From Nitrosovibrio sp. Nv4 (lineage in GTDB: Bacteria; Pseudomonadota; Gammaproteobacteria; Burkholderiales; Nitrosomonadaceae): a DNA stretch of 64,000 bases. Shown here in pieces: positions 22,133 through 33,509 of this stretch. The translations under genes and the position numbers were made by a program. Under the pieces are notes generated by a model. It was not told the DNA's origin and did no database searches. It worked only from the letters and a program-made list of their open reading frames with translations. How positions within the stretch are numbered: position 1 is the stretch's first letter; every line of letters starts with the position of its first letter. Location of the stretch: contig NZ_OCMZ01000001.1 of the NCBI RefSeq assembly GCF_900215485.1, positions 868,001-932,000 of the forward strand, given 5' to 3'.

Positions 22133-22229
22133 GAGGATGTCGAGAGGAACACGGCAACTGGCACGGTGATTGAGCAGGACTCCAGAAGTCACAATCTTCT
22201 GGCACAGGATATCGATCAAAGCGAAACGA

Positions 22230-23882
22230 ATGGAACACGGACGTAAACTTCAACATTTTGGCCTCGTTGCGGCATTGATCGTTATCGCTTCCCCATTACA
22301 CAGCTTTGCCGAACCCCAAGTACCTCATTTCCTCCTTAGCGCGACACCGGCAACTAATCCCGCAACCGATAAGACTGATGGGGGGCCTTTGTCCTTGTCT
22401 TTATCTTTATCCATGTCCTCGCCTGCAACTAACCGGGCAGCCATACCTGCTGGTGTCACTATTCAAAATGATAGGCGTATGCATGACGAGGTTGAAGGTA
22501 AACCCTTGTCTTTACCTTTGTCCCTATCCCTATCTCTACCCTCAGCCCTTGCTGTCGAAAACAGCGAAAATAATGTAACTGCAAGCGAAAGGTTCGACAA
22601 TGAAAGCGGTCCCACTTCGCGCGAATCGCTATTTGGGGATGATGAACCGCTCAAGGAGAAACCGCCGGAGCCGGCCTGGAAGAAATTGGTGACCGGCTGG
22701 ACTGGTTTTTCCCAGCTGGAAATCGCTGATAACTATACCAGTCCAGAGCATTTCTCAAAAGCGAAACTCCGCACTGAATTGTCCCGCAGAGGACGATTCA
22801 CTGAAAACATAAAATGGAAAATCAGCGGCCGGTTCGACTATGACGCCGCCTATGATCTATCCAGTTTCTACCCCTCGGCGGTGCGCCAGGATCAACGCTA
22901 TGACTTCTTTCTTCGCGAAAATTATCTGGATATTTCTGCTGGAGACTTCGACTTCCGCCTTGGCCGGCAGCACGTGATATGGGGTGAGATGGTCGGCCTG
23001 TTCTTCGCCGACGTGGTATCCGCCAAGGATCAGCGCGAATTCATCCTGCCGTCATTCGACATAATGCGCATACCGCAGTGGGCAATGCGCGCCGAATATT
23101 CGAAGAATGACACCCATGTTGAAGTATTGTGGATTCCGGTGCCGACTATTGACGAGATTGGCAAGCCTGGCTCCGACTATTACCCCGGTCCGCTGCGAGG
23201 AACAGCCTCCTTCCTGGGTGAAGATCGCTCGGGGCGCAACGTAGGCAATTCAAATTATGGACTTCGCTTGTCGCAACTCGTGAATGGATGGGATATTTCA
23301 GGCTTCTACTACCACAGTCTTGATGCTGCCTCCACGTTTTATCGTGTTAGTGGTCCGGCCGAGCCACTGGTGTTTCAGCCGCGCCATGACGAGATCGATC
23401 AGGTTGGTGGAACAATTACGAAAGATTTTGGTTCGATTGTGCTTAAAGGAGAGCTGGTCTATACGGATGGGCGTAAATTCAATGTTGCGCGTCCTACCGC
23501 CCTGAATGGGCTTGTCGGACAAAATACACTTGATTACGCAATAGGCCTCGACTTCAACTTACCAGCCGATACACGGCTGAATCTGCAATTTTTCCAGCGT
23601 GTCTTTTTCGCGCATGACCGCGACAATTTCTCGGACAGTGTAGAGAATGGCGCAAGCATTCTGCTTGGCGGCAAGATCTGGCAAAAGCTCGAAGCGCAAG
23701 CGTTGCTGATTCATAGTCTGAATCGCAGTGACTGGATGTTCCGCCCCCGGTTGTCCTGGCAATTCGAGAAGAACTGGCGCTGGGCACTGGGGGGAGACGT
23801 TTTCGGAGGGGAGCCTACGGGTCTGTTTGGTCGTTTCGAGAATAATGACCGTGTTTATACCGAATTGCGCTATTCATTCTGA
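22230..23882 (+). CDS. DUF1302-type outer-membrane beta-barrel protein
   Basis: 550 aa from ATG 22230 (MEHGRKLQHFG), with a signal peptide ending about FA-EP. Residues about 40-130 are an unusual region with two Leu/Ser runs of the form PLSLSLSLS. From about residue 150 it becomes a barrel of the DUF1302 type: FDFRLGRQHVIWGEMVGLFFADVVS, then RMPQWAMR-like and repeated aromatic strands, ending in YTELRYSF with the C-terminal Phe needed for outer-membrane assembly. DUF1302 proteins often accompany LolA-like proteins and MacB-type permeases. It lies 97 bases after the ABC ATPase and is probably co-transcribed. Confidence 0.8.
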   Translation: MEHGRKLQHFGLVAALIVIASPLHSFAEPQVPHFLLSATPATNPATDKTDGGPLSLSLSLSMSSPATNRAAIPAGVTIQNDRRMHDEVEGKPLSLPLSLSLSLPSALAVENSENNVTASERFDNESGPTSRESLFGDDEPLKEKPPEPAWKKLVTGWTGFSQLEIADNYTSPEHFSKAKLRTELSRRGRFTENIKWKISGRFDYDAAYDLSSFYPSAVRQDQRYDFFLRENYLDISAGDFDFRLGRQHVIWGEMVGLFFADVVSAKDQREFILPSFDIMRIPQWAMRAEYSKNDTHVEVLWIPVPTIDEIGKPGSDYYPGPLRGTASFLGEDRSGRNVGNSNYGLRLSQLVNGWDISGFYYHSLDAASTFYRVSGPAEPLVFQPRHDEIDQVGGTITKDFGSIVLKGELVYTDGRKFNVARPTALNGLVGQNTLDYAIGLDFNLPADTRLNLQFFQRVFFAHDRDNFSDSVENGASILLGGKIWQKLEAQALLIHSLNRSDWMFRPRLSWQFEKNWRWALGGDVFGGEPTGLFGRFENNDRVYTELRYSF

Positions 23883-23929: not shown

Positions 23930-24170
23930 CAGCCAGTTGTTGATTCGAAATGGGTTATGGGACAAGGCTCGGAATAATGAAATCCTAGCTAGCGCCAGAA
24001 ATTCCCTGGGAATGACTCCACATTCGGGGAAAGTAGCCTGTTTCAGCCGTTTCCAGCAACTGATCCAGCACGTAGTCGGCGCTAGTAGCCGAGTCGAGCT
24101 CTGCGATATAGTCATGAATAGCTTCAAGATCGCGTTCCGTCCCTTCGGCGAGCAGCACCTTCTAGCGCAT
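23930..24170 (-). pseudogene. Broken ParE/RelE-type toxin
   Basis: Read on the minus strand from an ATG at 24170, codon 3 is TAG. The frame then gives KVLLAEGTERDLEAIHDYI, continuing AELDSATSADYVLDQLLETAE, the clear N-terminal half of a ParE toxin. A frameshift near 24025 moves the likeness to another frame (FPECGVIPREFLALA, later NPFRIN), matching the toxin's C-terminal half. A premature stop and a frameshift make it non-functional. It lies just outside the island's far attachment site. Confidence 0.7.
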
Positions 24171-24216
24171 CAGCGCCCCGTTTGCTTGGCGCGCAACCGA
24201 GCAACCACGTCGAGCT
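24170..24216 (-). pseudogene. Antitoxin C-terminal fragment
   Basis: About 14 codons ending LDVVARLRAKQTGR and TGA, resembling the C-terminus of RHH/ParD-like antitoxins. The TGA overlaps the toxin ATG (TGATG), the usual coupling in toxin-antitoxin pairs. The likeness stops at 24216, exactly where the attachment core begins, as if integration cut it off. Confidence 0.4.
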
Positions 24217-24235
24217 GGAGACGAGGACAATCGAA
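24216..24235. other. Far attachment core (attL/attR candidate)
   Basis: TGGAGACGAGGA is identical for 12 bases to the tRNA-Ala 3' part at 33437-33448. After two mismatches, ATCGAA matches again. It sits where the island's gene run ends. Confidence 0.65.
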
Positions 24236-24285
24236 TACGCCTTGAATCCCGCACGTACAAACGGTCCTAGAACTCGGGCCGGAAA

Positions 24286-24307
24286 TATGCCCCCACTTAT
24301 GCCCCCA
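24286..24307. promoter_or_regulatory. Paired TATGCCCCCA arm-type integrase sites
   Basis: Two direct copies of TATGCCCCCA (24286-24295 and 24298-24307), 12 bp apart. The same motif occurs three times near the other end. They lie about 50 bp inside the attachment core, as expected for arm sites of a tyrosine integrase with an Arm-DNA-binding domain. Confidence 0.5.
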
Positions 24308-24333
24308 ATCGATCAGTACTCTATCAGTTCTGA

Positions 24334-24975
24334 CTAGTTACTAGGGTTTAACAAAGCTTGGGCGGTGTCTTCCGAGACGGGCTCAAGCTGATAAACGTAC
24401 ACTTGGTCGTTAGCCTTCTCATGCATGTGAATTAGCCACAGGCCCTCTTGTCCCAAGATTTGAATCTTATGGATTCTAAGCAAATTTACTATCTTTTCCA
24501 TCCATCCACTGATCGATTTGTCGGCGTAGTGATATCCATTCCTTGAATCGTAAGGGTTACGAGCGTGTAGCATTCCTCCGCACTTTTCGTAAACGTGGAG
24601 GAAATCAGCTTTAGTAAGAAACCCATCTGTTAAGTCCTGACAATGCGTTATTTCGCCCTGACGCGTTTCGACAACGGGCTTAGGAAAAAAATGTGGGTTT
24701 ACACGCTCCAAATCGGCTAGCAAAAATTTCGCGTTCCAATGCTTGGCGAAATGCTTATGAATACTTGCATAAGCCTCTTGATTTGCAATAAGCGAGCTGA
24801 ACGCTATCAACTCCAAAATTTTCCGAATCTGGAGGCATATTGATTCCGTCGTTGTCGGATTATATGGAAGGGCCTGACCACCGCCTGAACGAAGGAACTT
24901 AATGGCCTCAGCCCGCCATTTGATCTCCCCCATTAAATTTGCATATCCTTCTGTAGGAGAAATAGTTTTTTTCAT
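24334..24975 (-). CDS. Unknown 213-aa island cargo protein
   Basis: I do not recognise a named family. It is predicted soluble and mainly helical; a conserved-looking segment is ESICLQIRKILELIAFSSLIAN (about residues 45-66). A second block, KADFLHVYEKCGGMLHARNPYD (about 122-143), has several charged and His residues that could form an active or binding site. Its ATG overlaps the TGA of the HNH-like gene (ATGA), so the two are translated together. It is the last gene before the far attachment site, a usual place for anti-phage or other cargo. Function is not known; a HEPN-like or effector role is only a guess. Confidence 0.75.
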   Translation of the reverse strand: MKKTISPTEGYANLMGEIKWRAEAIKFLRSGGGQALPYNPTTTESICLQIRKILELIAFSSLIANQEAYASIHKHFAKHWNAKFLLADLERVNPHFFPKPVVETRQGEITHCQDLTDGFLTKADFLHVYEKCGGMLHARNPYDSRNGYHYADKSISGWMEKIVNLLRIHKIQILGQEGLWLIHMHEKANDQVYVYQLEPVSEDTAQALLNPSN

Positions 24976-25796
24976 TTTGCACCCGGGAGTTTATTGTTCT
25001 TTTTCGCTTTCTCATGCACTCCCATTGCTTGTTGCCCATAAACAAGAATTCTTCCATCATCTGGCGCTTCTGGCCACCTTTCGTGGGGTACTACGTTCAG
25101 ATGAACCGGCAACTCTATATCATCGTCGATCCCTAAGTGTCCCCACGTCGCCATATTCGGGAATTGAGGATATTGATATCCATGTGGTTTGTCCCATATA
25201 ACAAAAAAAGCAACTGGAAAAAACTTCATTAACCATACGGACGCTGGATGGCCGAGACTCAAAATAGTCATCGCTGCGTCTCTGAATAACACTTGAGTTT
25301 GGTAAGGATATACCCAGTAGTAAACGTCCAGGTAATCAGGAAACGTCTCTGTTTGATCAATAAGATAGTTTCTGAGGTCCTCAGTATTAGGCCCTTTTTT
25401 GTACCTATTAACACCCATTGCGCACAAATGGCCCAGTACCGAACGGACAATTTTTTGAGGTTTACCTGTTATATGCAATATCTCGGGCAGCACTAGCGGG
25501 CTTTTTAAATAGGACGCGATTTTTTGGCAAAAATCGTTGAATGCGATATCATAATTCGCTCCTAGTAACGAATTGTTACACCTCTTGCATAACGTCCTGA
25601 ATTTAACCCCATTCTGGGACACTCTGGCTTTCTCTCCAGTTTCTTCGGCGCTTAATAGACTCTTAATGTGGCGCATCTCAACTTGTGTTACCCGTACCGC
25701 ACCTTTTGGTGGGGTATGGTCTTCAGTTAGCGGGCCTTCCTCTCCACAGATGTTGCACACGCCCACCTTTGGTCCAGCTGTAATAAACCGTCTCAT
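24972..25796 (-). CDS. HNH-like zinc domain protein (island cargo)
   Basis: A 274-aa protein. The N-terminal 76 residues form an HNH-type zinc motif: C14-xx-C17, then D26-H27 in LTEDHTPPKG, then C70-xx-C73-N74 in TLCKRCNNSLLG. This pattern is that of HNH nucleases with a CxxC/CxxC zinc knuckle. The rest (about 77-274) is an unrecognised domain rich in aromatics, including YYWVYPYQTQVLF and FFVIWDKPHGY. It is coupled to the 213-aa gene by an ATGA overlap and separated from the capsid gene by a terminator, so it is likely expressed on its own. It may be a nuclease effector with the next protein as a sensor or partner (inference). Confidence 0.78.
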   Translation of the reverse strand: MRRFITAGPKVGVCNICGEEGPLTEDHTPPKGAVRVTQVEMRHIKSLLSAEETGEKARVSQNGVKFRTLCKRCNNSLLGANYDIAFNDFCQKIASYLKSPLVLPEILHITGKPQKIVRSVLGHLCAMGVNRYKKGPNTEDLRNYLIDQTETFPDYLDVYYWVYPYQTQVLFRDAAMTILSLGHPASVWLMKFFPVAFFVIWDKPHGYQYPQFPNMATWGHLGIDDDIELPVHLNVVPHERWPEAPDDGRILVYGQQAMGVHEKAKKNNKLPGAK

Positions 25797-25926
25797 ACTG
25801 AGTTCTATTATCGATTCTCGAGCTATTACTTACGGCAACAATGAGGGCTTCTGAGATCCCATTTTAACACCTAGCTCTACCACAATAAGATGCGCCGCAA
25901 ACATGACGCATAGGATTATCCTTTAT

Positions 25927-25942
25927 GTGCAGACGTCTGCAA
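25927..25942. repeat. Palindrome GTGCAGACGTCTGCA, copy 1
   Basis: TGCAGACGTCTGCA (25928-25941) is a perfect 14-bp palindrome. A 16-bp version lies at 27956-27971. It may be an operator within the island. Confidence 0.45.
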
Positions 25943-25959
25943 TCTCACCAGACAAGCAA

Positions 25960-25988
25960 AAACCCCCAACCTTTCGAGCTGGGGGTTT
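25960..25988. terminator. Rho-independent terminator, bidirectional
   Basis: AAACCCCCA (25960-25968) pairs with TGGGGGTTT (25980-25988) around an 11-nt loop; A-rich and T-rich flanks allow it to work on both strands. It closes the leftward capsid transcript before the cargo pair. Confidence 0.8.
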
Positions 25989-26101
25989 CTTCTGGTACTG
26001 CCTGCCACGCAACTAAAGGAAAGACGCTGCTGCAGACTGTCGGGGTTTTCGCACTACCCGACTAATCGGGCGCATTACGGCTGCGCCTGCCTGCACTGCG
26101 T

Positions 26102-27379
26102 TTAAGGTCTAACGCCAGTCACTACCGCCAGGGCAGCAGGATAGGTCACTGCTACATCCACCCTGGTATGGCAAGCAAAGCCGATTTCTCCCGTTTCGGC
26201 GAATAGCTCCTTCAGGAGTTGCACCGATACGCCCTCGCGCATGAAATAGATCACGCTGGAAAAGTCTCCCATGTAGATCTCCGTGCAATCGGTTGATGCG
26301 CCGACGGTCAGATTATTCGGGATCTGACTGGTTGCAATAAATTGGGTATTGTCGAGGATCTTCGGCTGCTGCCGCGGCTGATTCGTGGTATCGAGCAAAC
26401 CTGCCAGTCCCGTTAGCGATCGCGGGCTCATGATGGCTGCGGTAGGCATTGGCCCATCAGCTGCCAGGATAGACTGAATACCGCTGATAAAATTGCTGTA
26501 TGCCGTGGTTGCCAAGGATGCGCCAGCTGCGCCATTTGTCACAGACTGAATGCCGGTGGTATTTAGAATACCACTGATCTCAGGCGCCGTTCCGCTGCCT
26601 CTCAACCCTGCCCGGTCGAGTTCCTTTGCGAATGCCTGAGCAATTGCAGTAAATAGCGCCTGGTCAATGTTGGCTGAGTCGGCCAGCAGCTCGCGACTGA
26701 TCTTGAGAATAAAGCTTAACGAACGAGGAGTAATATCAACTGCTCTGAATACTGGATCACTCACAGCGAGTGCGCCCTGCTCAGCGCGCCAAGCTGCTGT
26801 CGGGATCGTCGAGATAGCCGCAATGCGGTAGTTCTTCGCGCCTTGCTCAAGCTTCGCCACACCTGCTCCGGCCGTTAGCAACGAGCTAACCGGCACCATT
26901 GCCTCTAGCATTTGCAGCTGCAGGTAACTGGGCAAGGTAAAACCGCCGGCAGTGTCAGTGCCAATAAGCAGGGCATTACGAACGGTTTCAGTAAGGCGCA
27001 TACCTGCTACGCCGCGCATGAATTCACTCATGCTTGCCATTGGCAATCCGCTACCTAACCCGCCTGACGTGGACGGGAATGCCTCTTGAAGCTGATCACG
27101 AAAGCTTCCCTTTTTGGCGAAAGCTACGGGTATTTTTGCGCCGGTTTCGGCGTTGCGCCATTCAACTCCTCCAGCTTGCGAGAACCCTCCAAAGCTGGAA
27201 TCCAGGGCTTTCTGCTCAGCGTCCAACCTGCGATCAATCGAGTCGATTTCCGCAAAGTTCATGTCGATTTCCTTTTGGATTTCGCTGGTAAATTTGATGC
27301 CTGGATTCTGATCAAACAGCCTGCGGGTCTCTTTCGCCAGGTGTTGGCGTTTCTCGCGTAAGTCCTTGATGACATTCAT
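26102..27379 (-). CDS. HK97-type phage major capsid protein
   Basis: 425 aa from ATG 27379, which has AAGGAG 7 bases upstream. The first 60 or so residues are charged helix (DLREKRQHLAKETRRLF), the delta/scaffold domain of HK97-family capsids. Then come the family's core motifs: GGFTLPSYLQLQMLEAM, AAWRAEQGALAVSDPVF, then PRSLSFILKISRELLADSANIDQALFTAIAQAFAKELDRAGL and GTGGA-like loops. The end, CHTRVDVAVTYPAALAVVTG, is also typical. It is the only virion gene in the element: no portal, head protease or terminase is seen. It could form a small satellite capsid or remodel a helper's capsid. Confidence 0.9.
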   Translation of the reverse strand: MNVIKDLREKRQHLAKETRRLFDQNPGIKFTSEIQKEIDMNFAEIDSIDRRLDAEQKALDSSFGGFSQAGGVEWRNAETGAKIPVAFAKKGSFRDQLQEAFPSTSGGLGSGLPMASMSEFMRGVAGMRLTETVRNALLIGTDTAGGFTLPSYLQLQMLEAMVPVSSLLTAGAGVAKLEQGAKNYRIAAISTIPTAAWRAEQGALAVSDPVFRAVDITPRSLSFILKISRELLADSANIDQALFTAIAQAFAKELDRAGLRGSGTAPEISGILNTTGIQSVTNGAAGASLATTAYSNFISGIQSILAADGPMPTAAIMSPRSLTGLAGLLDTTNQPRQQPKILDNTQFIATSQIPNNLTVGASTDCTEIYMGDFSSVIYFMREGVSVQLLKELFAETGEIGFACHTRVDVAVTYPAALAVVTGVRP

Positions 27380-27452
27380 TTCGATACTCCTTCTGTTATG
27401 GAGTATCGATTTTCCCGCGCCTTGCTGCCGCCCGGCAATTGCGCAAAATGTA

Positions 27453-27683
27453 TCAATTCGGTTCATTTTGCGCGTGGGTGCTCTTCTCGCGTGCTTCGAG
27501 TTCTTTCCTCAGTAACCAGGCGCGCACTTCACGAACTCGTACCATTTTTATGCCAGGCGAAAGCTCGATAAAACGCGGGAAGGTCGGGTCTCTCTTCATG
27601 ATTCGCCCCAGGGTGTGGCGGCTGAATCCCAGCATGTCCGCAACACCCTTCTTTCTCAGCAGCTTGTCATCCGGCATTTCCAT
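27453..27683 (-). CDS. AlpA-like helix-turn-helix regulator (second copy)
   Basis: A 76-aa protein with an AlpA/excisionase-type winged helix: LLRKKGVADMLGFSRHTLGRIMKR, then FPRFIELSPGIKMVRVREVRAWL. Such proteins control satellite-phage excision and late genes. It follows the 27683-27913 gene with a TGATG overlap and precedes the capsid gene by 73 bases, so it may regulate capsid expression. It is distinct from the AlpA at 31298. Confidence 0.78.
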   Translation of the reverse strand: MEMPDDKLLRKKGVADMLGFSRHTLGRIMKRDPTFPRFIELSPGIKMVRVREVRAWLLRKELEAREKSTHAQNEPN

Positions 27684-27913
27684 CAGTGAATGTTCCCCCT
27701 CGGTTCTTGAGCAACTAGCGTTGCCTTATCTGCCTGGAGCCGGGCAATATGCGTTTTAATCATCGCGGTAAACATGGCGCGGCCGAGGGCTTCAAAGGGC
27801 TTGCTCCCGCCTATGCTCGCAAGTGCATTCGTTACGTCAGCCAAAGGCTTCTCGCCATCAAGCAGGAAGTGTTGCGCTACCAGGTCGATGTCCTTTTCCA
27901 TTTCAGTCGTCAT
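27683..27913 (-). CDS. Hypothetical 76-aa island protein
   Basis: Not recognised. A small helical, slightly acidic protein (MTTEMEKDIDLVAQHFLL, later FEALGRAMFTAMIKTHIARLQADKA). Its stop overlaps the next start by one base (TGATG), which supports it as a real gene. It is the first gene after the repeat patch, so it begins the alpA2-capsid unit. Confidence 0.65.
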   Translation of the reverse strand: MTTEMEKDIDLVAQHFLLDGEKPLADVTNALASIGGSKPFEALGRAMFTAMIKTHIARLQADKATLVAQEPRGNIH

Positions 27914-27955
27914 TTTGTTGTCCTATCGTTAAGGTTGATAATTGCTGCTGTTCCA

Positions 27956-27971
27956 GTGCAGACGTCTGCAC
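27956..27971. repeat. 16-bp palindrome GTGCAGACGTCTGCAC, copy 2
   Basis: A perfect palindrome about 45 bases upstream of the 27683-27913 gene, in the position of an operator or promoter element for the alpA2-capsid unit. A 15/16 match occurs at 25927. Confidence 0.5.
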
Positions 27972-28093
27972 TACCTTGAGGAGTACCCCCCTCCGAAACT
28001 CCCGCACATAAAAATTCGATTAAGCAGACGGTCTAGGCGGGTGAGGCTTTGGACTTTTAACCCGCCCCCTCTGTTTCCAACTTGCTCATCAAA

Positions 28094-28311
28094 GGTGCTC
28101 AACTGAGCATCTTTGCCAAACCCTTTATCCATGCGGATTTCAGCCAAGTTGCTCAAGGTGCTCAGGTAAGGGGGTAGTGTTAGCATGTTGCTCAACATCC
28201 TTAGACTCATGAGCAGCTTGAGCACCTTAGCTGTAAGCCTTATAAGTAGTAGTAGTTGGGTAAGTTGTTCAGTGAGCATCTTGAGTGAGCACCTTGAGTA
28301 ATGTGAGCATC
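28094..28311. repeat. Iteron-like TGAGCAYC repeats
   Basis: TGAGCATC or TGAGCACC starts at 28104, 28219, 28273, 28286 and 28304; its reverse complement lies at 28094-28101 and 28157-28164. Related GTTGCTCA copies lie at 28149 and 28187. The patch directly follows the RepA-like helicase gene, the usual place for a replication origin. Confidence 0.55.
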
Positions 28312-29505
28312 TTATTCATCAGTCACATTCAACGACATTTGGGCGCCCTTGTGCTCATCAGGTAGCGCCCACCGCCAGCAAGGCGTCTCTCCTTCCGCGC
28401 TATGGCGACGAGGTTTTATTCCTAGCGTCGCCTGTGCCCTGCGCACCGTCGCCCAGGAATACCCCGCGCCCTTGGCGTATTTCTTCACGTCATCGCTCGG
28501 CACCGGCCCATTCGCTAGCACGTCACAGAGCCACTCGGCGGCATCCTCCGCCAGCGTGCTTTCGTGATCACCCTGGTCATCCTCGCGCCCCAAGGCATCA
28601 TCTGCGGATATCAGCACAATCTCTTTCTCCCATACTACCCGAGGCACACCGCCTGCCTCCTCGATGTGGTAGGCCATGCCAGTCGCGTCCGGCCCCAGGT
28701 TGTTCTTTAACGGAAGGAATAGACGCCTGTTCTGGTCGCTCTTGTCTTTGGTCACTAGGAAGGCGGCACGTGCCGCCGCCACGAATGCCAAGCTACCGGT
28801 CGACCGGTAGAGTGCTGAGCCACCTGTACCCTTGTTCAAGTGGGTAACAAAGATAATGGCAGCACCAATGCTGCTGGCCAGCTCGGACAACGGCGCTATC
28901 ACGCCCCGCACTTCCGCATTGTTGTGGGAGTCCGCGCCGTCGAGATAGGCTGATACGGGGTCAACTACGATCAGGCGGCATTGCGGTAGGGTCAGCGCGG
29001 CTTCCCGGATAGGCTCCAGGTCGCGCCGCAAACTCAGCAGCCTGGTTTCGGGGCCGCCGTCACGGTTCAAGCTTTCCACCCCGCCGACGATATGTACCCG
29101 CGCCGGATCGGCTCCTGCTGCATCCAGACGCGGCCTGATTGTGTCGGCAGGATCATCCTCTGCTGAAACAAACAGGACGTCACCTTGTGGGCATATCCCG
29201 CCCCCAGCTGGCCAGTCCCGCCCCGTTGAGACGTGTGCTGCAAAGCTTACCGTCAGCATGCTCTTGCCCAGGCCAGGATCGCCAGCTATCAGGGTGGGCT
29301 TGCCCAGGGCGATCTTCCCTGGCCATAGCCAGCGTACGGGTTGCGGCTTGACCTCGCTCGCCCTGGTAACTTTTAATCGAGATTTTGTAGACGTCTGCAC
29401 CCCATGCCCACGATCTATGTATCGCTGCTGTTCCGGAGTAAGAGTTTTTTTCTCCTTATCCAGCGCGGCCGCGCCGCGCTCTATGCTTGAAATATTGTTA
29501 CCCAT
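28312..29505 (-). CDS. RepA-like AAA/RecA-fold replicative ATPase
   Basis: 397 aa from ATG 29505, with GGAGG six bases upstream (a GTG three bases earlier is less likely). A hexameric-helicase-type RecA fold: Walker A GDPGLGKS (75-82), a sensor-like FVSAEDDPADTIRPRLDAAG, Walker B RLIVVDPVSAYLDG, and IIFVTHLNKG. This is the class of RSF1010 RepA-like ATPases found in satellites and prophages next to CHC2 primase-type proteins. The C-terminus looks like a DNA-binding winged helix (GAGYSWATVRRAQATLGIKP). It overlaps the zinc-finger gene by 8 bases. It probably unwinds the element's origin. Confidence 0.88.
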   Translation of the reverse strand: MGNNISSIERGAAALDKEKKTLTPEQQRYIDRGHGVQTSTKSRLKVTRASEVKPQPVRWLWPGKIALGKPTLIAGDPGLGKSMLTVSFAAHVSTGRDWPAGGGICPQGDVLFVSAEDDPADTIRPRLDAAGADPARVHIVGGVESLNRDGGPETRLLSLRRDLEPIREAALTLPQCRLIVVDPVSAYLDGADSHNNAEVRGVIAPLSELASSIGAAIIFVTHLNKGTGGSALYRSTGSLAFVAAARAAFLVTKDKSDQNRRLFLPLKNNLGPDATGMAYHIEEAGGVPRVVWEKEIVLISADDALGREDDQGDHESTLAEDAAEWLCDVLANGPVPSDDVKKYAKGAGYSWATVRRAQATLGIKPRRHSAEGETPCWRWALPDEHKGAQMSLNVTDE

Positions 29506-29917
29506 CACATACCTCCGTCGCGGCCTGTAGCCGTGAAGCCGCCAGCAGCAGACGCTTTCTGTCCGCCTCCGGAAGCTCCACGCCTTGGGCCACGTTATTT
29601 GCTGCTATCGATACGACCAGCGCTTCAAATGCTACGCAGCGCAGCACGTCGATTGCCGACCATGGCCGCCGCTCTTTCGCGCCGCTGTAGCCTTCCTGAC
29701 GCTCTGGAAACAAATCCTCAAGGGTGAGCCCTACCGCCGCGAGAACGTCGCTGGTAGGGCATCCTGCAAAGTCATGCAAAAGCACGCGGCCATCGTCCAG
29801 TTCTCGAATCGCCAGGGAAGGGCGGCTGTCTTCATGAGCTGGACAACGCGAAACCCACCGGCCGCGACCAGTGGGCTTCACGCCATGCAGGAGCGAAAGC
29901 AGCTTATCGACGCTCAT
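29498..29917 (-). CDS. CHC2 zinc-finger protein, primase-like
   Basis: 139 aa from ATG 29917. It has the CHC2 zinc finger of DnaG-type primases: C25-xx-H28 (RCPAHEDSRPSL) and H48...C53 (LLHDFAGC). The TOPRIM catalytic domain is absent; the remainder is a helical segment (ERRPWSAIDVLRCVAFEAL). So it may recognise template DNA and recruit a host primase rather than synthesise primers. It overlaps its neighbours on both sides, in one operon with the RepA-like ATPase. Confidence 0.85.
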   Translation of the reverse strand: MSVDKLLSLLHGVKPTGRGRWVSRCPAHEDSRPSLAIRELDDGRVLLHDFAGCPTSDVLAAVGLTLEDLFPERQEGYSGAKERRPWSAIDVLRCVAFEALVVSIAANNVAQGVELPEADRKRLLLAASRLQAATEVCDG

Positions 29918-30179
29918 CAAGCGTGCCCTCTCTTACATCTCCCAAAAGGGAAGAGGCTTTTTCGATGCGATCCATCAAATCCTGCATGACGTAGAACAAT
30001 CCGCTAAGTTGACCGGGCAGCAGATGCAATCCTTCGTCTGGTCTCGGGCTAAGCGTGATGCTCTGGACAAAATCGGCAAGATGACGCGCTTGGGAAAGCA
30101 AATCCATTGCGTTGTTCAAATCATGAATAGGATGACGGGATGTAACGGGCGCGAGTGCGACTTTGGGTTGATTAGCCAT
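29904..30179 (-). CDS. Island paralogue family, member C
   Basis: 91 aa from ATG 30179. The N-terminus MANQPKVALAPVTSRHPIHD nearly repeats that of the upstream gene (MANQTKVALAPV); the rest is a helical segment (LSGLFYVMQDLMDRIEKASSLL) also echoed there. Stop and start overlap the neighbours on both sides. Function unknown. Confidence 0.7.
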   Translation of the reverse strand: MANQPKVALAPVTSRHPIHDLNNAMDLLSQARHLADFVQSITLSPRPDEGLHLLPGQLSGLFYVMQDLMDRIEKASSLLGDVREGTLDERR

Positions 30180-30441
30180 GGTGCGCACCCTCCCGACATT
30201 CATCCAGATCGCTTACCAGATTTTCAAGGCGGTTTGATAAGTCATCCATAAGGTGGATAAATCCAAGGGACTCTACCGAGGATAACTCGATCCCATCACC
30301 TCCCTCCATGGCTCTGAAGAACATGCCACGGCAAAAATGAACTATAAAGCTAGCTTCACAGAGGGAATTCTGAACAGTTAGTAGCTCGTTATCGGCGACG
30401 GATATAACCGGCGCGAGCGCGACTTTGGTTTGATTAGCCAT
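30172..30441 (-). CDS. Island paralogue family, member B
   Basis: 89 aa from ATG 30441; the start is fixed by the shared MANQxKVALAPV N-terminus. Its body (VQNSLCEASFIVHFCRG, GFIHLMDDLSNRLENLVSDL) aligns by eye with members A and C. It overlaps member A by 8 bases and C by 8 bases in an identical arrangement, showing tandem duplication. Function unknown. Confidence 0.7.
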   Translation of the reverse strand: MANQTKVALAPVISVADNELLTVQNSLCEASFIVHFCRGMFFRAMEGGDGIELSSVESLGFIHLMDDLSNRLENLVSDLDECREGAHHG

Positions 30442-30739
30442 GATGCACCTCCGGCGCAATATAGCCTTCGATTCCGGCCTTCTCTGCCTCTTCTCGCACT
30501 ACATCAATATCGTTATGCAGTAGATCGGCCAGGTTTTTTCCGTGCGTGGCTAGACCCATGATCTCCGGCGAATCCTTGCCCAGCAATTTAATGGCAGAGA
30601 ACAGTGAGCGCATGGATTCGACATAATCCATGGCTATGTGGCAATGACACGTCAGTTCAAGGCGTGTCAGAATTGGAAAACCGTTGTGAGTGTTGTGCGG
30701 TGTAACTGGCGCGAACGCGCCTTGGGAATTGGTTTTCAT
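30434..30739 (-). CDS. Island paralogue family, member A
   Basis: 101 aa from ATG 30739 (MKTNSQGAFAPVTPHNTHN). The open frame runs on to 31024, but those upstream residues lie in the structured leader and do not resemble the paralogues. AMDYVESMRSLFSAIKLLGKD and LATHGKNLADLLHNDIDVV correspond to the helices of B and C. It begins the co-transcribed run A-B-C-CHC2-RepA. Function unknown. Confidence 0.7.
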   Translation of the reverse strand: MKTNSQGAFAPVTPHNTHNGFPILTRLELTCHCHIAMDYVESMRSLFSAIKLLGKDSPEIMGLATHGKNLADLLHNDIDVVREEAEKAGIEGYIAPEVHHG

Positions 30740-30757
30740 GGCAAGACTCCTAGCAAA

Positions 30758-30963
30758 GCGGTTTAACCGCGCCCTCACTTCCAAATGAGGGTGGGCGGCA
30801 ACAGGCAGGTTGGAAGACCGGGCTAGGACCGGCGAGCCTCTCAGCTCCCCACCTGCGCCGCCCGTAAAGGGTGGGCAGAAATGACGGACAAAAAAATAAC
30901 CGCTCAAGGCGGTTGTCCGCCTAGCACACGGGCTTCCAAACCCGACCGCTGGAACCCCAGCGG
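30758..30963 (-). ncRNA. Structured leader of the replication operon (possible regulatory RNA)
   Basis: Four short hairpins in 206 bases: GCGGTTTAACCGC (30758-30770); CCCTCA with TGAGGG (30772-30791); GGCGG with CCGCC (30908-30921); CCGCTGG with CCAGCGG (30946-30963). They lie just before the paralogue/replication operon. In P4-like satellites this position holds a leader RNA that controls replication genes and gives immunity (established for P4). The likeness here is by position and structure only. Confidence 0.4.
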
Positions 30964-31013
30964 CAAAGAAAGCATAATCCCGGCGGCATGCGGATGTCAA
31001 GGCATGAGCCGGT

Positions 31014-31301
31014 TTATTTATCATTATCCCCCGCCTTGCTGTTCGCTATTGCATCCGCAATCTTCCCAAGGGTATTCAGCTCGGCCTCCTTCATGATGCG
31101 ACGCTCCTCTGCGCGTTCATCCAGGTGCGCGAGCAAAGCTATGCCAACGACAAGCGTAGGATGCTTTCTGATTATTTCCTCTGGCAACTCCCGCGAATCA
31201 AGAAGGCCGATTAAAACCTGTGCTGCTAACAGAAGCTGGTCGCCAGCGTAAAAAAGGCCATCGTTGTTCAGCTTATCGAAGTCGATTTCCGACGCGCTCA
31301 T
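31014..31301 (-). CDS. Hypothetical 95-aa island protein
   Basis: Not recognised. Helical and acidic, with a hydrophobic middle (YAGDQLLLAAQVLIGLLDSRELPEEII) and a charged C-terminal helix (HLDERAEERRIMKEAEL). It resembles, in size and leucine pattern, small genes that follow alpA in satellites. Its ATG overlaps the alpA TGA (ATGA), so it is in the alpA transcript. Confidence 0.65.
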   Translation of the reverse strand: MSASEIDFDKLNNDGLFYAGDQLLLAAQVLIGLLDSRELPEEIIRKHPTLVVGIALLAHLDERAEERRIMKEAELNTLGKIADAIANSKAGDNDK

Positions 31302-31504
31302 TGCGCTACCGCTTTCCGTGCGAGTGCGCGTGGACGACTGGCTACCCAGGCTTGCACCTCTTCACTATGCCAGCCGCTGGCGCACTCAGAAAGCTTAACT
31401 CTTGATGGGAATTGCCCTGATGCTTCCAGGCGATAAATTGAAGATCGAGAGAGCCCGGTTACACGTGAGACTTCGGGCTGTTTTAATATGGATTTGAGTT
31501 GCAC
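31298..31504 (-). CDS. alpA: AlpA family transcriptional regulator
   Basis: 68 aa, GTG start at 31504 with AGGAGG four bases upstream. A winged-helix AlpA protein: ILKQPEVSRVTGLSRSSIYRLEASGQFPSRVKLSE, then GWHSEEVQAWVASR. AlpA proteins switch P4-like integrase and late genes. It starts a separate unit after the terminator at 31584-31611. Confidence 0.88.
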   Translation of the reverse strand: MQLKSILKQPEVSRVTGLSRSSIYRLEASGQFPSRVKLSECASGWHSEEVQAWVASRPRALARKAVAQ

Positions 31505-31583
31505 AATACCTCCTATGGAATATCAACGTGCTTTATGCGACGTTGCAGGAGGTCATGCTAGAGTGATACTTAACAAAGATAAA

Positions 31584-31611
31584 CGCCGCTAATAAGAGCA
31601 AATTAGCGGCG
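31584..31611 (-). terminator. Hairpin terminator of the integrase-side unit
   Basis: A perfect 10-bp stem, CGCCGCTAAT (31584-31593) with ATTAGCGGCG (31602-31611), loop AAGAGCAA. On the minus strand a T-rich stretch (tttatctttgtt) follows. It lies between the small ORF at 31617 and alpA. Confidence 0.65.
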
Positions 31612-31616
31612 AAAGA

Positions 31617-31799
31617 TTAGGAGGATTTCTCGATGCTGCTTTTCGGTCGCCTTGGATAAATTATCTTATCAAGGCGTGATGCTGTTATTCCATATCGTTC
31701 AGCTACAATTTCCAACGCTTCTCTATAAGCATCAAATCCTTGCTGCGGTTTATGACTGTTTACTGCTTTCAACTTCATCATGGTGAAGTTCAGGTCCAT
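31617..31799 (-). CDS. Hypothetical 60-aa basic island protein
   Basis: Not recognised. A small basic protein: ALEIVAERYGITASRLDKIIYPRRPKSS suggests a short DNA-binding helix. No good ribosome site; an internal Met at residue 7 or 8 could also be the start. Two direct repeats overlap its start (31799-31828). Confidence 0.45.
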   Translation of the reverse strand: MDLNFTMMKLKAVNSHKPQQGFDAYREALEIVAERYGITASRLDKIIYPRRPKSSIEKSS

Positions 31800-31828
31800 T
31801 CTGTAAACAACAGTTCTGTAAAAAACAG
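31799..31828. promoter_or_regulatory. Tandem 15-bp direct repeat, operator-like
   Basis: TTCTGTAAACAACAG (31799-31813) is followed at once by TTCTGTAAAAAACAG (31814-31828), one mismatch. Each copy carries a CTGT...ACAG dyad. The site overlaps the start of the 60-aa ORF, fitting a repressor operator. Confidence 0.5.
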
Positions 31829-31843
31829 ATGCGCCTGTTTGGT

Positions 31844-32029
31844 CTAAACTACGTTTTCTCCCACTTTTTTTTTAATTTTTCCTTCAATAATATCCGCAAC
31901 AAAAATTCTTAATTCAGGCGTGAGTCTTTTCTCGCTTCTAAGTAATTGAGCTAATGGTTCAGCGTTACCTTCGTTAAGATAGCTGGTCACAGCAGAATTC
32001 CGTATGAGTTCATCAAAATTAAGGGGCAT
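31844..32029 (-). CDS. Hypothetical 61-aa island protein
   Basis: Not recognised. Sequence such as PLAQLLRSEKRLTPELRIFVADIIEGKIKKKVG looks like a small soluble protein often seen next to integrases. It begins 18 bases after the integrase stop, so it may be in the same transcript. Confidence 0.55.
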   Translation of the reverse strand: MPLNFDELIRNSAVTSYLNEGNAEPLAQLLRSEKRLTPELRIFVADIIEGKIKKKVGENVV

Positions 32030-32047
32030 ATGTGAAAATCCTCTTTG

Positions 32048-33256
32048 TCAGTTTAATTTAAAGGTCAAAATCTTTGCCCCAGTTGTAAGACTGTCCAAGT
32101 AGTCCGCCCACAACTGCATCATTTCGCGCCGCTCTTTTAGAAACTTCGTGCGGTTATATGCAGCGCCCAGGACATCAGGCACTTTGTGCGCCAGCTGGTG
32201 TTCGATGACTTCCGGCTTCTGGTGTAGCTCTTCAGCCAGAATGGTTCGCGCCATTGCCCGAAAGCCATGCCCCGTTATTTCAGTCTTAGTGTCGTATCCC
32301 ATCCTGCGCAAGGCAGCGTTGATCGCAGCATCGCTCATGGGCTTTCTAGAGTCGCGCCCAGGAAAGACATATTGCCCGGCCCCCGTCAGCGCCCGGAGCT
32401 CGCGGAGAGTTGCCACCGCCTGGGTGGCCAGAGGAACGGAATGTTCGGTCTTTGTCTTGGTGACGAAGTAGCGCCACTCGGGTTTATCGAAGTCAATATT
32501 CTTCCACTCCGCGCGCCGTAGCTCACCAGGACGCACGAACAACATAGGGGCAAGGCGTAAGGCACACTGAACCACAAAAGTGCCTCTGAAGCCCTGGATT
32601 GCGCGCAACAACTCACCAACCTGAACAGGATCGGTGATCGAAGCGAAATGGTTTTTTCTAGTGGAGGGTATTGCGTCCTTTAAGTCCTGGGAGGGATCGC
32701 GCTCCGCTCTTCCTGTCGCCACGGCATAGCGAAACACCTGCCCGCAATTTTGTTTGATTCGGTGTGCCGTATCCAGCGCGCCCCGGGTTTCCGTACGACG
32801 GATTACTGCGAGCAGCTGAGGCGGAGTTATCTCAGCAATGGGCTTATTCCCCATCCAGGGGAAAACATCATTTTCGAGACGCCTGATAATTTTGTCACTA
32901 TGAGACGCCGCCCACTGAGGGGAAAACTTCGCGAACCACTCCCGCGCTATCACTTCGAAGCTGTTCGCCGCATTTTCCCTGTTTGTGTGTTTGGACTGCT
33001 GCTTGACTATGGCAGGATCAACACCGTTGGCCAACAGCTTGCGGGCATCGTCTCGCCGCTGGCGAGCCAAGCTTAGGGGCACATCGGGATACACACCAAA
33101 GGCAAGTCGCTTCTCTTTTCCTCCAAAGCGGTACTTTAATCGCCAGTATTTCGAGGCGTTGGGCATCACTTCAAGGTACATGCCCCCGCCATCCGCCATC
33201 TTATAAGGCTTGGCTTCAGGCTTCGCCTTGCGCACTGCCATATCGTTTAATTTCAT
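32048..33256 (-). CDS. int: P4-type tyrosine integrase
   Basis: A 402-aa site-specific recombinase. N-terminal Arm-DNA-binding domain of the DUF4102 type (KPYKMADGGGMYLEV, WRLKYRFGGKEKRLAFGVYPD), SAM-like core-binding domain, then the catalytic domain with R242 (RPGEL), H330-G-F-R333, H357 (QLAHK) and the nucleophile Y367 (AAYNRT). Full length and apparently active. It lies 178 bases from the tRNA-Ala 3' end, the target. Arm-type repeats flank it at 33270-33319. Confidence 0.95.
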   Translation of the reverse strand: MKLNDMAVRKAKPEAKPYKMADGGGMYLEVMPNASKYWRLKYRFGGKEKRLAFGVYPDVPLSLARQRRDDARKLLANGVDPAIVKQQSKHTNRENAANSFEVIAREWFAKFSPQWAASHSDKIIRRLENDVFPWMGNKPIAEITPPQLLAVIRRTETRGALDTAHRIKQNCGQVFRYAVATGRAERDPSQDLKDAIPSTRKNHFASITDPVQVGELLRAIQGFRGTFVVQCALRLAPMLFVRPGELRRAEWKNIDFDKPEWRYFVTKTKTEHSVPLATQAVATLRELRALTGAGQYVFPGRDSRKPMSDAAINAALRRMGYDTKTEITGHGFRAMARTILAEELHQKPEVIEHQLAHKVPDVLGAAYNRTKFLKERREMMQLWADYLDSLTTGAKILTFKLN

Positions 33257-33269
33257 GAGGGAACCTGAT

Positions 33270-33319
33270 TGGGGGCATCAAATTTGAATTGGGGGCATTT
33301 GTTGCCGAATTATGCCCCC
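33270..33319. promoter_or_regulatory. Three GGGGGCAT/ATGCCCCC arm-type sites
   Basis: TGGGGGCAT at 33270-33278 and 33290-33298, then TATGCCCCC at 33311-33319 in the other orientation. The same motif is paired at 24286-24307 inside the far end. Likely integrase arm sites; they also lie in the integrase promoter region, where they could give self-control. Confidence 0.5.
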
Positions 33320-33377
33320 TTTAGGTGCGGGATTCAATAGAACTTGATGAGATGTGACGGGACGTAAGACCAATGAA

Positions 33378-33400
33378 AAAGCCCGCAGGGCGCGGGCTTT
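33378..33400 (-). terminator. Terminator downstream of tRNA-Ala
   Basis: AAAGCCCGC (33378-33386) with GCGGGCTTT (33392-33400), loop AGGGC, with A- and T-tracts on both sides. It ends the leftward tRNA transcript and may shield the island from it. Confidence 0.8.
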
Positions 33401-33433
33401 TGGGACTTCTTGGGACTTGCTGGAACATCTAAA

Positions 33434-33509
<76 letters not shown>

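Follow-up and report, generated by a model that had tools for sequence, protein, structure and literature searches.

The element considered here occupies positions 24216 to 33456 of a 64-kb stretch of DNA (the window), situated in the 3.27-Mb genome of Nitrosovibrio sp. Nv4 (G000). It raises a simple question: what is a compact unit with an integrase, replication genes and a lone phage capsid gene doing at a tRNA gene, and how would it travel? A sequence-only reading had described it as a compact satellite-like element with replication genes, which the RepA-like and CHC2-type matches given below support, and had added that it lacked packaging machinery and matched no named satellite family. 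We propose that the element is a satellite resembling the phage-inducible chromosomal islands (PICIs), packaged by the terminase of a helper phage, and that its own capsid protein makes or biases satellite capsids. We give this reading a probability of roughly 0.8. That the element is a satellite of the PICI type we hold with high confidence; that it forms its own or biased capsids, argued by analogy, has about even odds.

Ends and layout of the element

ARAGORN calls a single tRNA in the window, the tRNA-Ala(CGC) at 33434-33509, which confirms the insertion site named by the sequence-only reading (feature coordinates are given in Table 1). The core repeat of 18/20 also stands: the best second copy of any 20 tRNA bases in the window is 24216-24235, with 2 mismatches to the tRNA 3' end at 33437-33456, and the next-best spot for tRNA 20-mers elsewhere in the window has 5. 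The arm-type sites claimed for both ends are borne out by an inverted repeat between 24242-24310 and 33267-33337, which comprises TTGAATCCCGCAC and ATGCCCCC sites, two on the left and three on the right. Elsewhere in the window, the 8-mer ATGCCCCC occurs at 33180 (within the integrase gene), 3651 and 59720. Other elements at tRNA-Ala(CGC) have right ends similar to this right arm region. The GC content of the element is 51.9%, against 54.3% in the rest of the window.

The left boundary is supported by a related element and not by an empty site. An element of ~10 kb at the same tRNA in G099 has a left end that matches 24216-24310, beginning at the core (78% over 91 bp; its core is one base shorter). 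Matches to the tRNA and to all or part of its right flank were obtained in all 23 genus genomes, 20 flanks were fetched and compared, and gene maps were made for 11; among the 23 there was no clean empty tRNA-Ala joined to DNA left of 24215. In the three relatives that have the left-flank gene (22170-23882) and tRNA-Ala on one contig (G094, G097 and G096), that gene lies 225-415 kb from the tRNA, so the DNA left of the element has undergone rearrangement. The region 23989-24212 holds a decayed ParE-type toxin and the C-terminal end of an antitoxin, truncated at the left edge of the element, and longer relatives of this remnant sit 6-11 kb from tRNA-Ala in G100 and G096.

Between these ends, every listed gene is encoded on the minus strand (33256 to 24334), in the one-way order that had been noticed. 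From the tRNA inward come the integrase, two small genes, AlpA-1, four small genes and the CHC2-type and RepA-like genes, and then the repeats, a cos-like block, the 76-aa gene, AlpA-2, the capsid gene and two genes for cargo proteins. The P4-type integrase and the two AlpA proteins of the sequence-only reading are confirmed by their Pfam families, and so is the capsid gene, which stands alone.

A probable copied packaging site and a candidate helper type

Scans with Pfam, PHROGs and query proteins matched no terminase or portal inside the element, and to this extent the claim that packaging machinery is absent holds; what it overlooked is a block of 114 bp at 27956-28069, which is probably the copied cohesive-end site (cos) of a prophage in a relative. 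The block aligns to a prophage on contig C34 of G114 (blastn E=2.8e-26, 100/121 columns identical), where it starts ~60 bp upstream of a P27-type terS and ends beside an HNH gene. The cos of HK97-like phages is usually located between HNH and terS, and the record of phage VarioGold places the cohesive end 88 bp from terS. The alignment scores 153, and a shorter query scores 131 against the copy in L285; shuffled queries score at most 40. L285 was not counted as an independent carrier, its open reading frames looking the same as those of the G114 prophage. From its similarity and position, the block is likely cut by a terminase and used for packaging.

Eleven satellites were compared in this respect with 11 prophage or phage sequences, and four share a block that lies just upstream of a prophage terS. 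Besides the window element, these are the tRNA-Ala satellite of G114, with 83% identity to a G094 prophage block about 10 bp from terS, and the satellites of G095 and G097, with 69% and 78% to a G105 prophage block about 17 bp from terS. Our block matches the Rubrivivax satellite L034 weakly (48, where shuffles reach no more than 31), and its similarity to the annotated cos junction of VarioGold was discarded as not significant (26, where shuffles give 20-26).

The HK97-like, ParB-encoding prophage of G114 is thus the candidate for the helper type, on sequence grounds. The fit of the satellite capsid to the portal of such a helper is uncertain because the two capsid proteins are only ~22.5% identical. 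In the own genome, large-terminase matches are clear at C2:368787, C2:1081801 and C3:1749620 (one stop) and weak at C3:647657; no exact match longer than 17 bases was found between the element and these terminase-bearing regions, and a search of this genome for the G114-type ParB-like gene found no close relative. By naming a candidate helper type, the cos-like block turns the helper question into a direct experiment.

The capsid gene and its relatives

We read the start of the capsid gene at 27379, where it has the ribosome-binding site AGAAGGAG, giving a protein of 425 aa instead of the 454 aa of the longest open reading frame. The gene is single-copy in its genome. Sixty-three columns are invariant among 15 sequences, and against the copy in Nitrosospira sp. 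Nl5 the nonsynonymous divergence (dN) is 0.21, with the synonymous divergence (dS) saturated; the sequences indicate that the gene is under purifying selection. The AlphaFold model has a mean predicted local distance difference test score of 72, and a fold search with it finds HK97-fold capsids, among them those of D3, a gene transfer agent and HK97, with the SaPI1 capsid at rank 28. As modelled, the protein is a full-length HK97-type fold.

Close relatives are few. At E <= 0.001, 20 of 125 family genomes (own included) have a capsid match, and besides the own genome only G110 (73%), G098 (63%) and G111 (a remnant) hold close ones. A pattern scan with one genome per species gave 12 relatives, in which the best segments have 48-73% identity. 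Record names assign ten of them to Betaproteobacterial taxa or Proteobacteria; the other two come from Lysobacter and Stenotrophomonas. At E <= 1e-30, profile searches gave at least 3 of 399 order genomes and at least 3 of 369 class genomes, own included in each; these counts are lower bounds because at most four candidates per genome were scored. All 175 matches in phage records and all 77 in plasmid records are below 60% identity, and among the matches listed the best full-length phage capsid reaches ~27% and partial ones up to 31%. Seven plasmid records of Clostridioides difficile (H33-H39), five of them 7.7-8.0 kb in size, carry a phage-type capsid gene ~25% identical to ours and are possibly another form of lone-capsid satellite.

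The architecture was examined with nine query proteins in 29 loci, namely 28 fetched loci and 20 kb of the window; several of the contigs end shortly after the capsid gene. Dropped from this count were L058, L061-L089 (capsid below ~35%), L043 (the decayed G111 locus), L092 (a distant G270 locus) and L027 (the same locus as L041). An integrase and a capsid gene of the window element's clade are both present in 23 of the 29, and in 22 of these 23 the integrase lies 5' of the capsid gene, co-directional and 2.8-6.1 kb apart; the exception is L091, where the capsid gene is decayed. The profile used had 12 of the 23 integrases among its seeds, and L055 and L059 are near-identical. A tRNA or tmRNA lies within 300 bp of the integrase in 10 of the 23.

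Large-terminase or portal matches occur in three loci, in L056 and L057, which sit in prophage packaging genes, and in the fragment L060, where a portal gene follows the capsid gene. The L057 element splits a prophage large terminase, with the N-terminal 96 residues before the integrase and the remainder past the element (phrog_7622 positions 5-94 and 102-220). In addition, a 42-bp sequence lying between HNH and TerS in that phage has an exact second copy just 3' of the satellite capsid gene, where it precedes a second TerS-type gene, and in L056 a 22-bp repeat stands after the HNH gene and again after the capsid gene. On the L052 contig, a large terminase lies ~15 kb past the stretch read, in what reads as a neighbouring prophage. 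Elsewhere the genes after the capsid gene encode TerS (L028, L029), a tape measure protein (L037, L090) or tail fibre J-like and tail proteins (L041).

Replication genes and a candidate origin

The 140-aa CHC2-type protein has no Pfam match, its primase N-terminus being matched in PHROGs alone; its relative in G102:C4 matches PF01807, just below the cut-off. The closest solved relative of the RepA-like ATPase is 1g8y, named RepA, which we take to be the RepA of RSF1010, and the protein is also related to phage primase/helicase families (phrog_906 and phrog_239, E about 1e-16). Given these PHROG matches of the two proteins, their function may equal that of the Pri-Rep protein of PICIs. Directly 3' of repA, 11 of the 52 TGCTCA/TGAGCA hexamers of the window fall within 230 bp, and in 2000 shuffles of 27914-28311 no hexamer reached this count. 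The spacer between the two repeat sets is only weakly AT-rich (about 62% AT). In the tRNA-Ala elements of G099 and G098, different hexamers cluster immediately 3' of the rep-like genes (0/1000 shuffles each).

Three further satellites, L151 (G102:C4), L153 (G095:C11) and L155 (G097), encode relatives of the CHC2-type protein, and L151 and L153 also encode RepA relatives. They were found through a palindrome, discussed below, which each carries. Their late genes differ from those of the window; an S49-type head protease is present in L151 and L153, and a Nu1-like TerS in L151.

An integration hotspot with exchangeable late genes

The tRNA-Ala site is an integration hotspot in the genus. Intact integrases 59-92% identical to ours stand there in seven genomes (G114, G105, G106, G102, G101, G098 and G099), integrase fragments in four further ones among the 11 gene maps, and prophage tail genes lie several kb from tRNA-Ala in G103. 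Between integrases at this site, dN is 0.06-0.07 and dS about 1 or more. The G102 element (L137, G102:C26) has an integrase 76% identical to ours and the order capsid, protease, portal, and its capsid protein belongs to another clade (27% over 274 aa). The capsid of the G114 satellite at tRNA-Ala is 44% identical to that of the G094 prophage. Because other satellites at this tRNA carry capsid proteins of other clades, the late zone is exchangeable. A hotspot within one genus houses several satellites that have related integrases and differing capsid and replication modules.

Other contents of the site vary as well. Restriction-like genes, by reading, follow the capsid-protease-portal genes of the G102:C26 element. 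The satellite-like element L140 (G098:C7) encodes a tape measure protein of 1183 aa (PF20155), and the window capsid protein found no match in it. In G096, a different island of 8.2 kb (L127, positions 5310 and 13535 in window orientation) has a 50-bp copy of the tRNA end (96%) as its boundary and encodes a distant integrase (22% identity).

Proposed cycle and competing explanations

By analogy with established satellites, the integrase would insert the element into the 3' end of tRNA-Ala(CGC), and AlpA-1 would drive excision, early expression or both. The CHC2-type protein and RepA would replicate the element from the repeats directly 3' of repA. After induction by a helper, the terminase of an HK97-type phage would recognise the copied cos block, cut and package the DNA. 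The late operon of the 76-aa protein, AlpA-2 and the capsid would supply the satellite with a capsid protein of its own, of HK97 fold. This protein would most likely make or bias small capsids used with the portal and tail of the helper, and the 3' end would carry cargo.

Three other explanations account for part of these observations. The capsid protein may build no capsids and instead interfere with the helper, poisoning its capsid assembly or serving as a decoy in it, the element itself being packaged in full-size helper capsids. EcCICFT073 is a precedent: the DNA it packages is of phage size, and neither transfer nor interference requires its capsid gene (PMC6092414, in the parts available), and the distance between the window capsid and that of the candidate helper would fit. 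However, the full-length fold of the model and the strong conservation speak against a decoy. The same parts of that source describe small capsids for PmCI172, whose genes include a capsid homologue, and state that SaPIbov5 makes SaPI-sized capsids via its homologue, Ccm (PMC6092414). We therefore regard a decoy as rather unlikely. Alternatively, the element could be a reduced capsid-forming PICI, whose ancestor had a whole module of capsid, protease, portal and terminase and of which the first gene remains. The gene order of the G102 element at the same tRNA, TerS after the capsid gene in L028 and L029 and the portal in L060 would suit such a history, but the G102 capsid is of another clade, and no large terminase or portal was matched by the nine queries in the fetched stretch of 26 of the 29 loci, short contigs included, a pattern that resembles a stable condition more than a loss in recent times. 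This origin seems improbable to us. A defective prophage that kept its capsid gene by chance would explain why there is only one structural gene, a phage-type integrase and resident terminase-bearing regions in the genome. We rejected an ordinary remnant of this kind, and consider it very improbable, on the inward integrase with AlpA, the two intact ends, the origin-like repeats, the purifying selection acting on the capsid gene and the recurrence of this layout in many genera.

Several observations weigh against the PICI-like satellite that we prefer. Its mobility (excision, induction, packaging into particles) is a prediction from sequence, and so is the type of its helper. No helper was evident in its own genome, where the 36-40 kb stretches around the three clear terminases contain neither the cos-like block nor the palindrome, and seven of the 11 satellites compared have no block near a prophage terS, some having short or coding matches. 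Of the 21 elements scanned, only three (the window, G099 and G098) were noticed to have repeats clustered directly 3' of rep, the remaining clusters being weaker or located elsewhere. The capsid gene is decayed in three relatives, by a frameshift in G098, to a remnant in G111 and by stops in G215. The dispensable capsid gene of EcCICFT073 and the low capsid identity to the prophage that shares the cos-like block count here too.

A palindrome shared with ParB-encoding phages

With up to 2 mismatches allowed, the window contains three copies of the palindrome GTGCAGACGTCTGCAC, all of them within the element. Its exact 14-mer core is found at 24 sites in 9 of the 23 genus genomes (0 for the reversed control), 12 of them clustered in three prophages (G094, G114 and G105) and 7 in satellites. 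A ParB-like relative is encoded at full length in G094 and G114 (65%) and as a C-terminal part in G105 (66%), and in the remaining 20 genus genomes the match is partial, at 28-44% identity, or missing. These three prophages are not independent evidence because they were found through the palindrome. Phages Aval and VarioGold, in contrast, were selected regardless of it, as the best 2 of 101 phage records with a match to the N-terminal half of the ParB-like protein (39-40% identity), and they have 3 and 6 sites at up to 2 mismatches, one within the parB of each. The palindrome is thus present in 5/5 phages or prophages with a ParB-like gene and in 0/6 prophage regions that lack such a gene and were chosen by terminase alone; control palindromes average 0.00-0.05 per stretch, with a maximum of 1. 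Among viral contigs, at least 120 stretches contain it, compared with 11 for one composition-matched control, and 15 of the 80 such stretches examined encode a ParB-like relative.

We tentatively suggest that GTGCAGACGTCTGCAC is a ParB-like recognition site of temperate Betaproteobacteria phages, carried by satellites so that the ParB-like protein of the helper acts on satellite DNA in partition, transcription or packaging. Co-occurrence suggests that the protein may bind the site. Six of the nine genomes with exact sites count against the idea, having no close ParB-like gene, because close relatives are found only in G094, G114 and G105. Cut down to a 12-mer and allowed up to 2 mismatches, the palindrome shows no enrichment in the window (4 sites against 2.9 expected; 38 of 100 shuffles reach 4). 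With a limit of 3 mismatches, one of the control palindromes has 3 sites in the window and 5 in VarioGold. Over 28 satellite stretches, a two-base-degenerate form has 10 sites in five stretches, three of them chosen for carrying the palindrome, and 1 of 299 control palindromes also reaches 10. Among the phage matches listed for the 61-base flank of one copy, E is about 2 or worse, and a text search for exact GTGCAGACGTCTGCAC gave one paper, listed as a work on DNA topology. If the idea is true, the palindrome would be an undescribed coupling of satellite and helper beside the copied cos site, and a simple DNA tag tying some satellites to helpers across Betaproteobacteria.

Small and cargo genes

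The small proteins have no match in Pfam or PHROGs. Three of them, p101, p95a and p99, are of comparable lengths with alike N-termini and have relatives in other satellites. A relative of the 76-aa protein, 57% identical, lies directly 5' of AlpA-2 in Nitrosospira sp. Nl5, and equivalents of AlpA-2 occupy the same position in L027 (76%), L029 (49%) and L033 (43%). The two cargo genes (24334-25796) stand at the 3' end with a palindrome copy 5' of them, a position that fits the accessory slot of PICIs. No defence family matched the cargo proteins convincingly, and PADLOC gave nothing for the small and cargo proteins except that the 274-aa protein weakly matched Cas8c (E=0.025).

Table 1. Features of the element, from the tRNA inward (window positions)
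Feature	Positions	Strand	Basis
tRNA-Ala(CGC), integration target	33434..33509	-	ARAGORN; 3' end is the right core, 33437-33456
Right arm region	33267..33337		Three ATGCCCCC/GGGGGCAT sites and GTGCGGGATTCAA; inverted repeat with 24242-24310
P4-type tyrosine integrase, points inward	32048..33256	-	Pfam PF13356, PF22022 and PF00589
61-aa hypothetical protein	31844..32029	-	Open reading frame; no family
60-aa hypothetical protein	31617..31799	-	Open reading frame; no family
AlpA-1, regulator/excisionase type	31298..31504	-	PF05930, E=1e-15
95-aa small protein	31014..31301	-	Open reading frame; relative 71% identical in G097 satellite
p101, p95a and p99, small proteins	29904..30739	-	Open reading frames, starts chosen by reading; no family
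140-aa CHC2-type primase N-terminal protein	29498..29920	-	phrog_6088, E=2e-15
Palindrome, third copy, 2 mismatches	29385..29400		In 5' part of repA
RepA-like AAA_25 ATPase/helicase	28312..29508	-	PF13481; RepA structure 1g8y, E=7e-8
Candidate replication origin	28083..28309		11 TGCTCA/TGAGCA repeats directly 3' of repA
Cos-like packaging block, 114 bp	27956..28069		83% to HNH-terS intergenic region, G114 prophage
Palindrome GTGCAGACGTCTGCAC, exact; candidate ParB-like site	27956..27971		Sequence scan
76-aa protein, opens late operon	27683..27913	-	Open reading frame; relative in Nitrosospira sp. Nl5
AlpA-2, directly 5' of capsid gene	27453..27683	-	PF05930, 22.9 bits against a cut-off of 21
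HK97-type major capsid protein, 425 aa	26102..27379	-	PF05065, E=1e-38; own ribosome-binding site
Palindrome, second copy, 1 mismatch	25927..25942		About 160 bp 3' of capsid gene
274-aa cargo protein	24972..25796	-	phrog_21495, function not assigned; weak HNH match phrog_5956, E=0.005
213-aa cargo protein	24334..24975	-	phrog_13799, function not assigned
Left arm region	24242..24310		TTGAATCCCGCAC and two ATGCCCCC sites; inverted repeat with 33267-33337
Left attachment core	24216..24235	+	18/20 against tRNA 3' end 33437-33456 (repeat search)

Comparison with known satellite families

The sequence-only reading had found no named family for this gene set, and here it is not borne out: the layout is the gene order of Gram-negative PICIs, as given in the available parts of PMC10111431 and PMC6092414. 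Like them, the element has an inward integrase with AlpA and genes in one direction, a replication zone with iteron-type repeats directly 3' of it (here 28083-28309, alike by position), a late zone with a lone capsid gene, and accessory genes at one end. Where those islands have the cos or TerS of a helper, it has a cos-like block, recognised by similarity and position, and no TerS. The same parts of these sources give a capsid gene in 21 of the 29 reference Gram-negative PICIs (PMC10111431) and cos sites but no TerS in EcCICFT073 (PMC6092414). By family scans of its proteins, the element, like the Gram-negative PICIs, has no phage structural or lytic genes except those of capsid morphogenesis. 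It differs in the split into a CHC2-type protein and a RepA-like ATPase, neither matching the Pri-Rep Pfam families, in its own HK97-type (PF05065) capsid clade, in the tRNA-Ala site and the Betaproteobacterial nitrifier host, and in the palindromes common to ParB-encoding phages.

Other families are less alike. The relatives L056 and L057, inside prophage packaging genes, recall the helper-embedded PICIs (PMC10111431, in part), whereas the window element is at a tRNA and not in a prophage late gene. A satellite-encoded HK97-type capsid protein, and in the G102 element also protease and portal, resemble the capsid-forming PICIs, whose module holds capsid, protease, portal, connectors, terminases and HNH in the accessible part of PMC10690885; a full capsid-forming PICI was rejected, only the capsid gene being present, with no protease, portal, connector or terminase. 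Like SaPIbov5 with its Ccm, the element carries a homologue of a phage capsid protein, but SaPIbov5 belongs to a Gram-positive family with divergent Stl regulation, not AlpA-based. P4-like satellites are marked by the P4 alpha replicase with sid, psu and delta, and this family was rejected, as no such Pfam or PHROG match was found among the element's proteins. The phage-inducible chromosomal minimalist islands, with reduced gene content and no capsid-remodelling genes (PMC10803314, in part), were rejected on the capsid gene. A search of open-licence literature for Nitrosospira with satellite or PICI gave, among the matches listed, no paper on satellites of ammonia oxidisers. We therefore describe the element as a PICI-like variant and not as a member of the Gram-negative family, because it agrees with that family in layout, origin position and the presence of a cos or TerS, and not in the Pri-Rep families.

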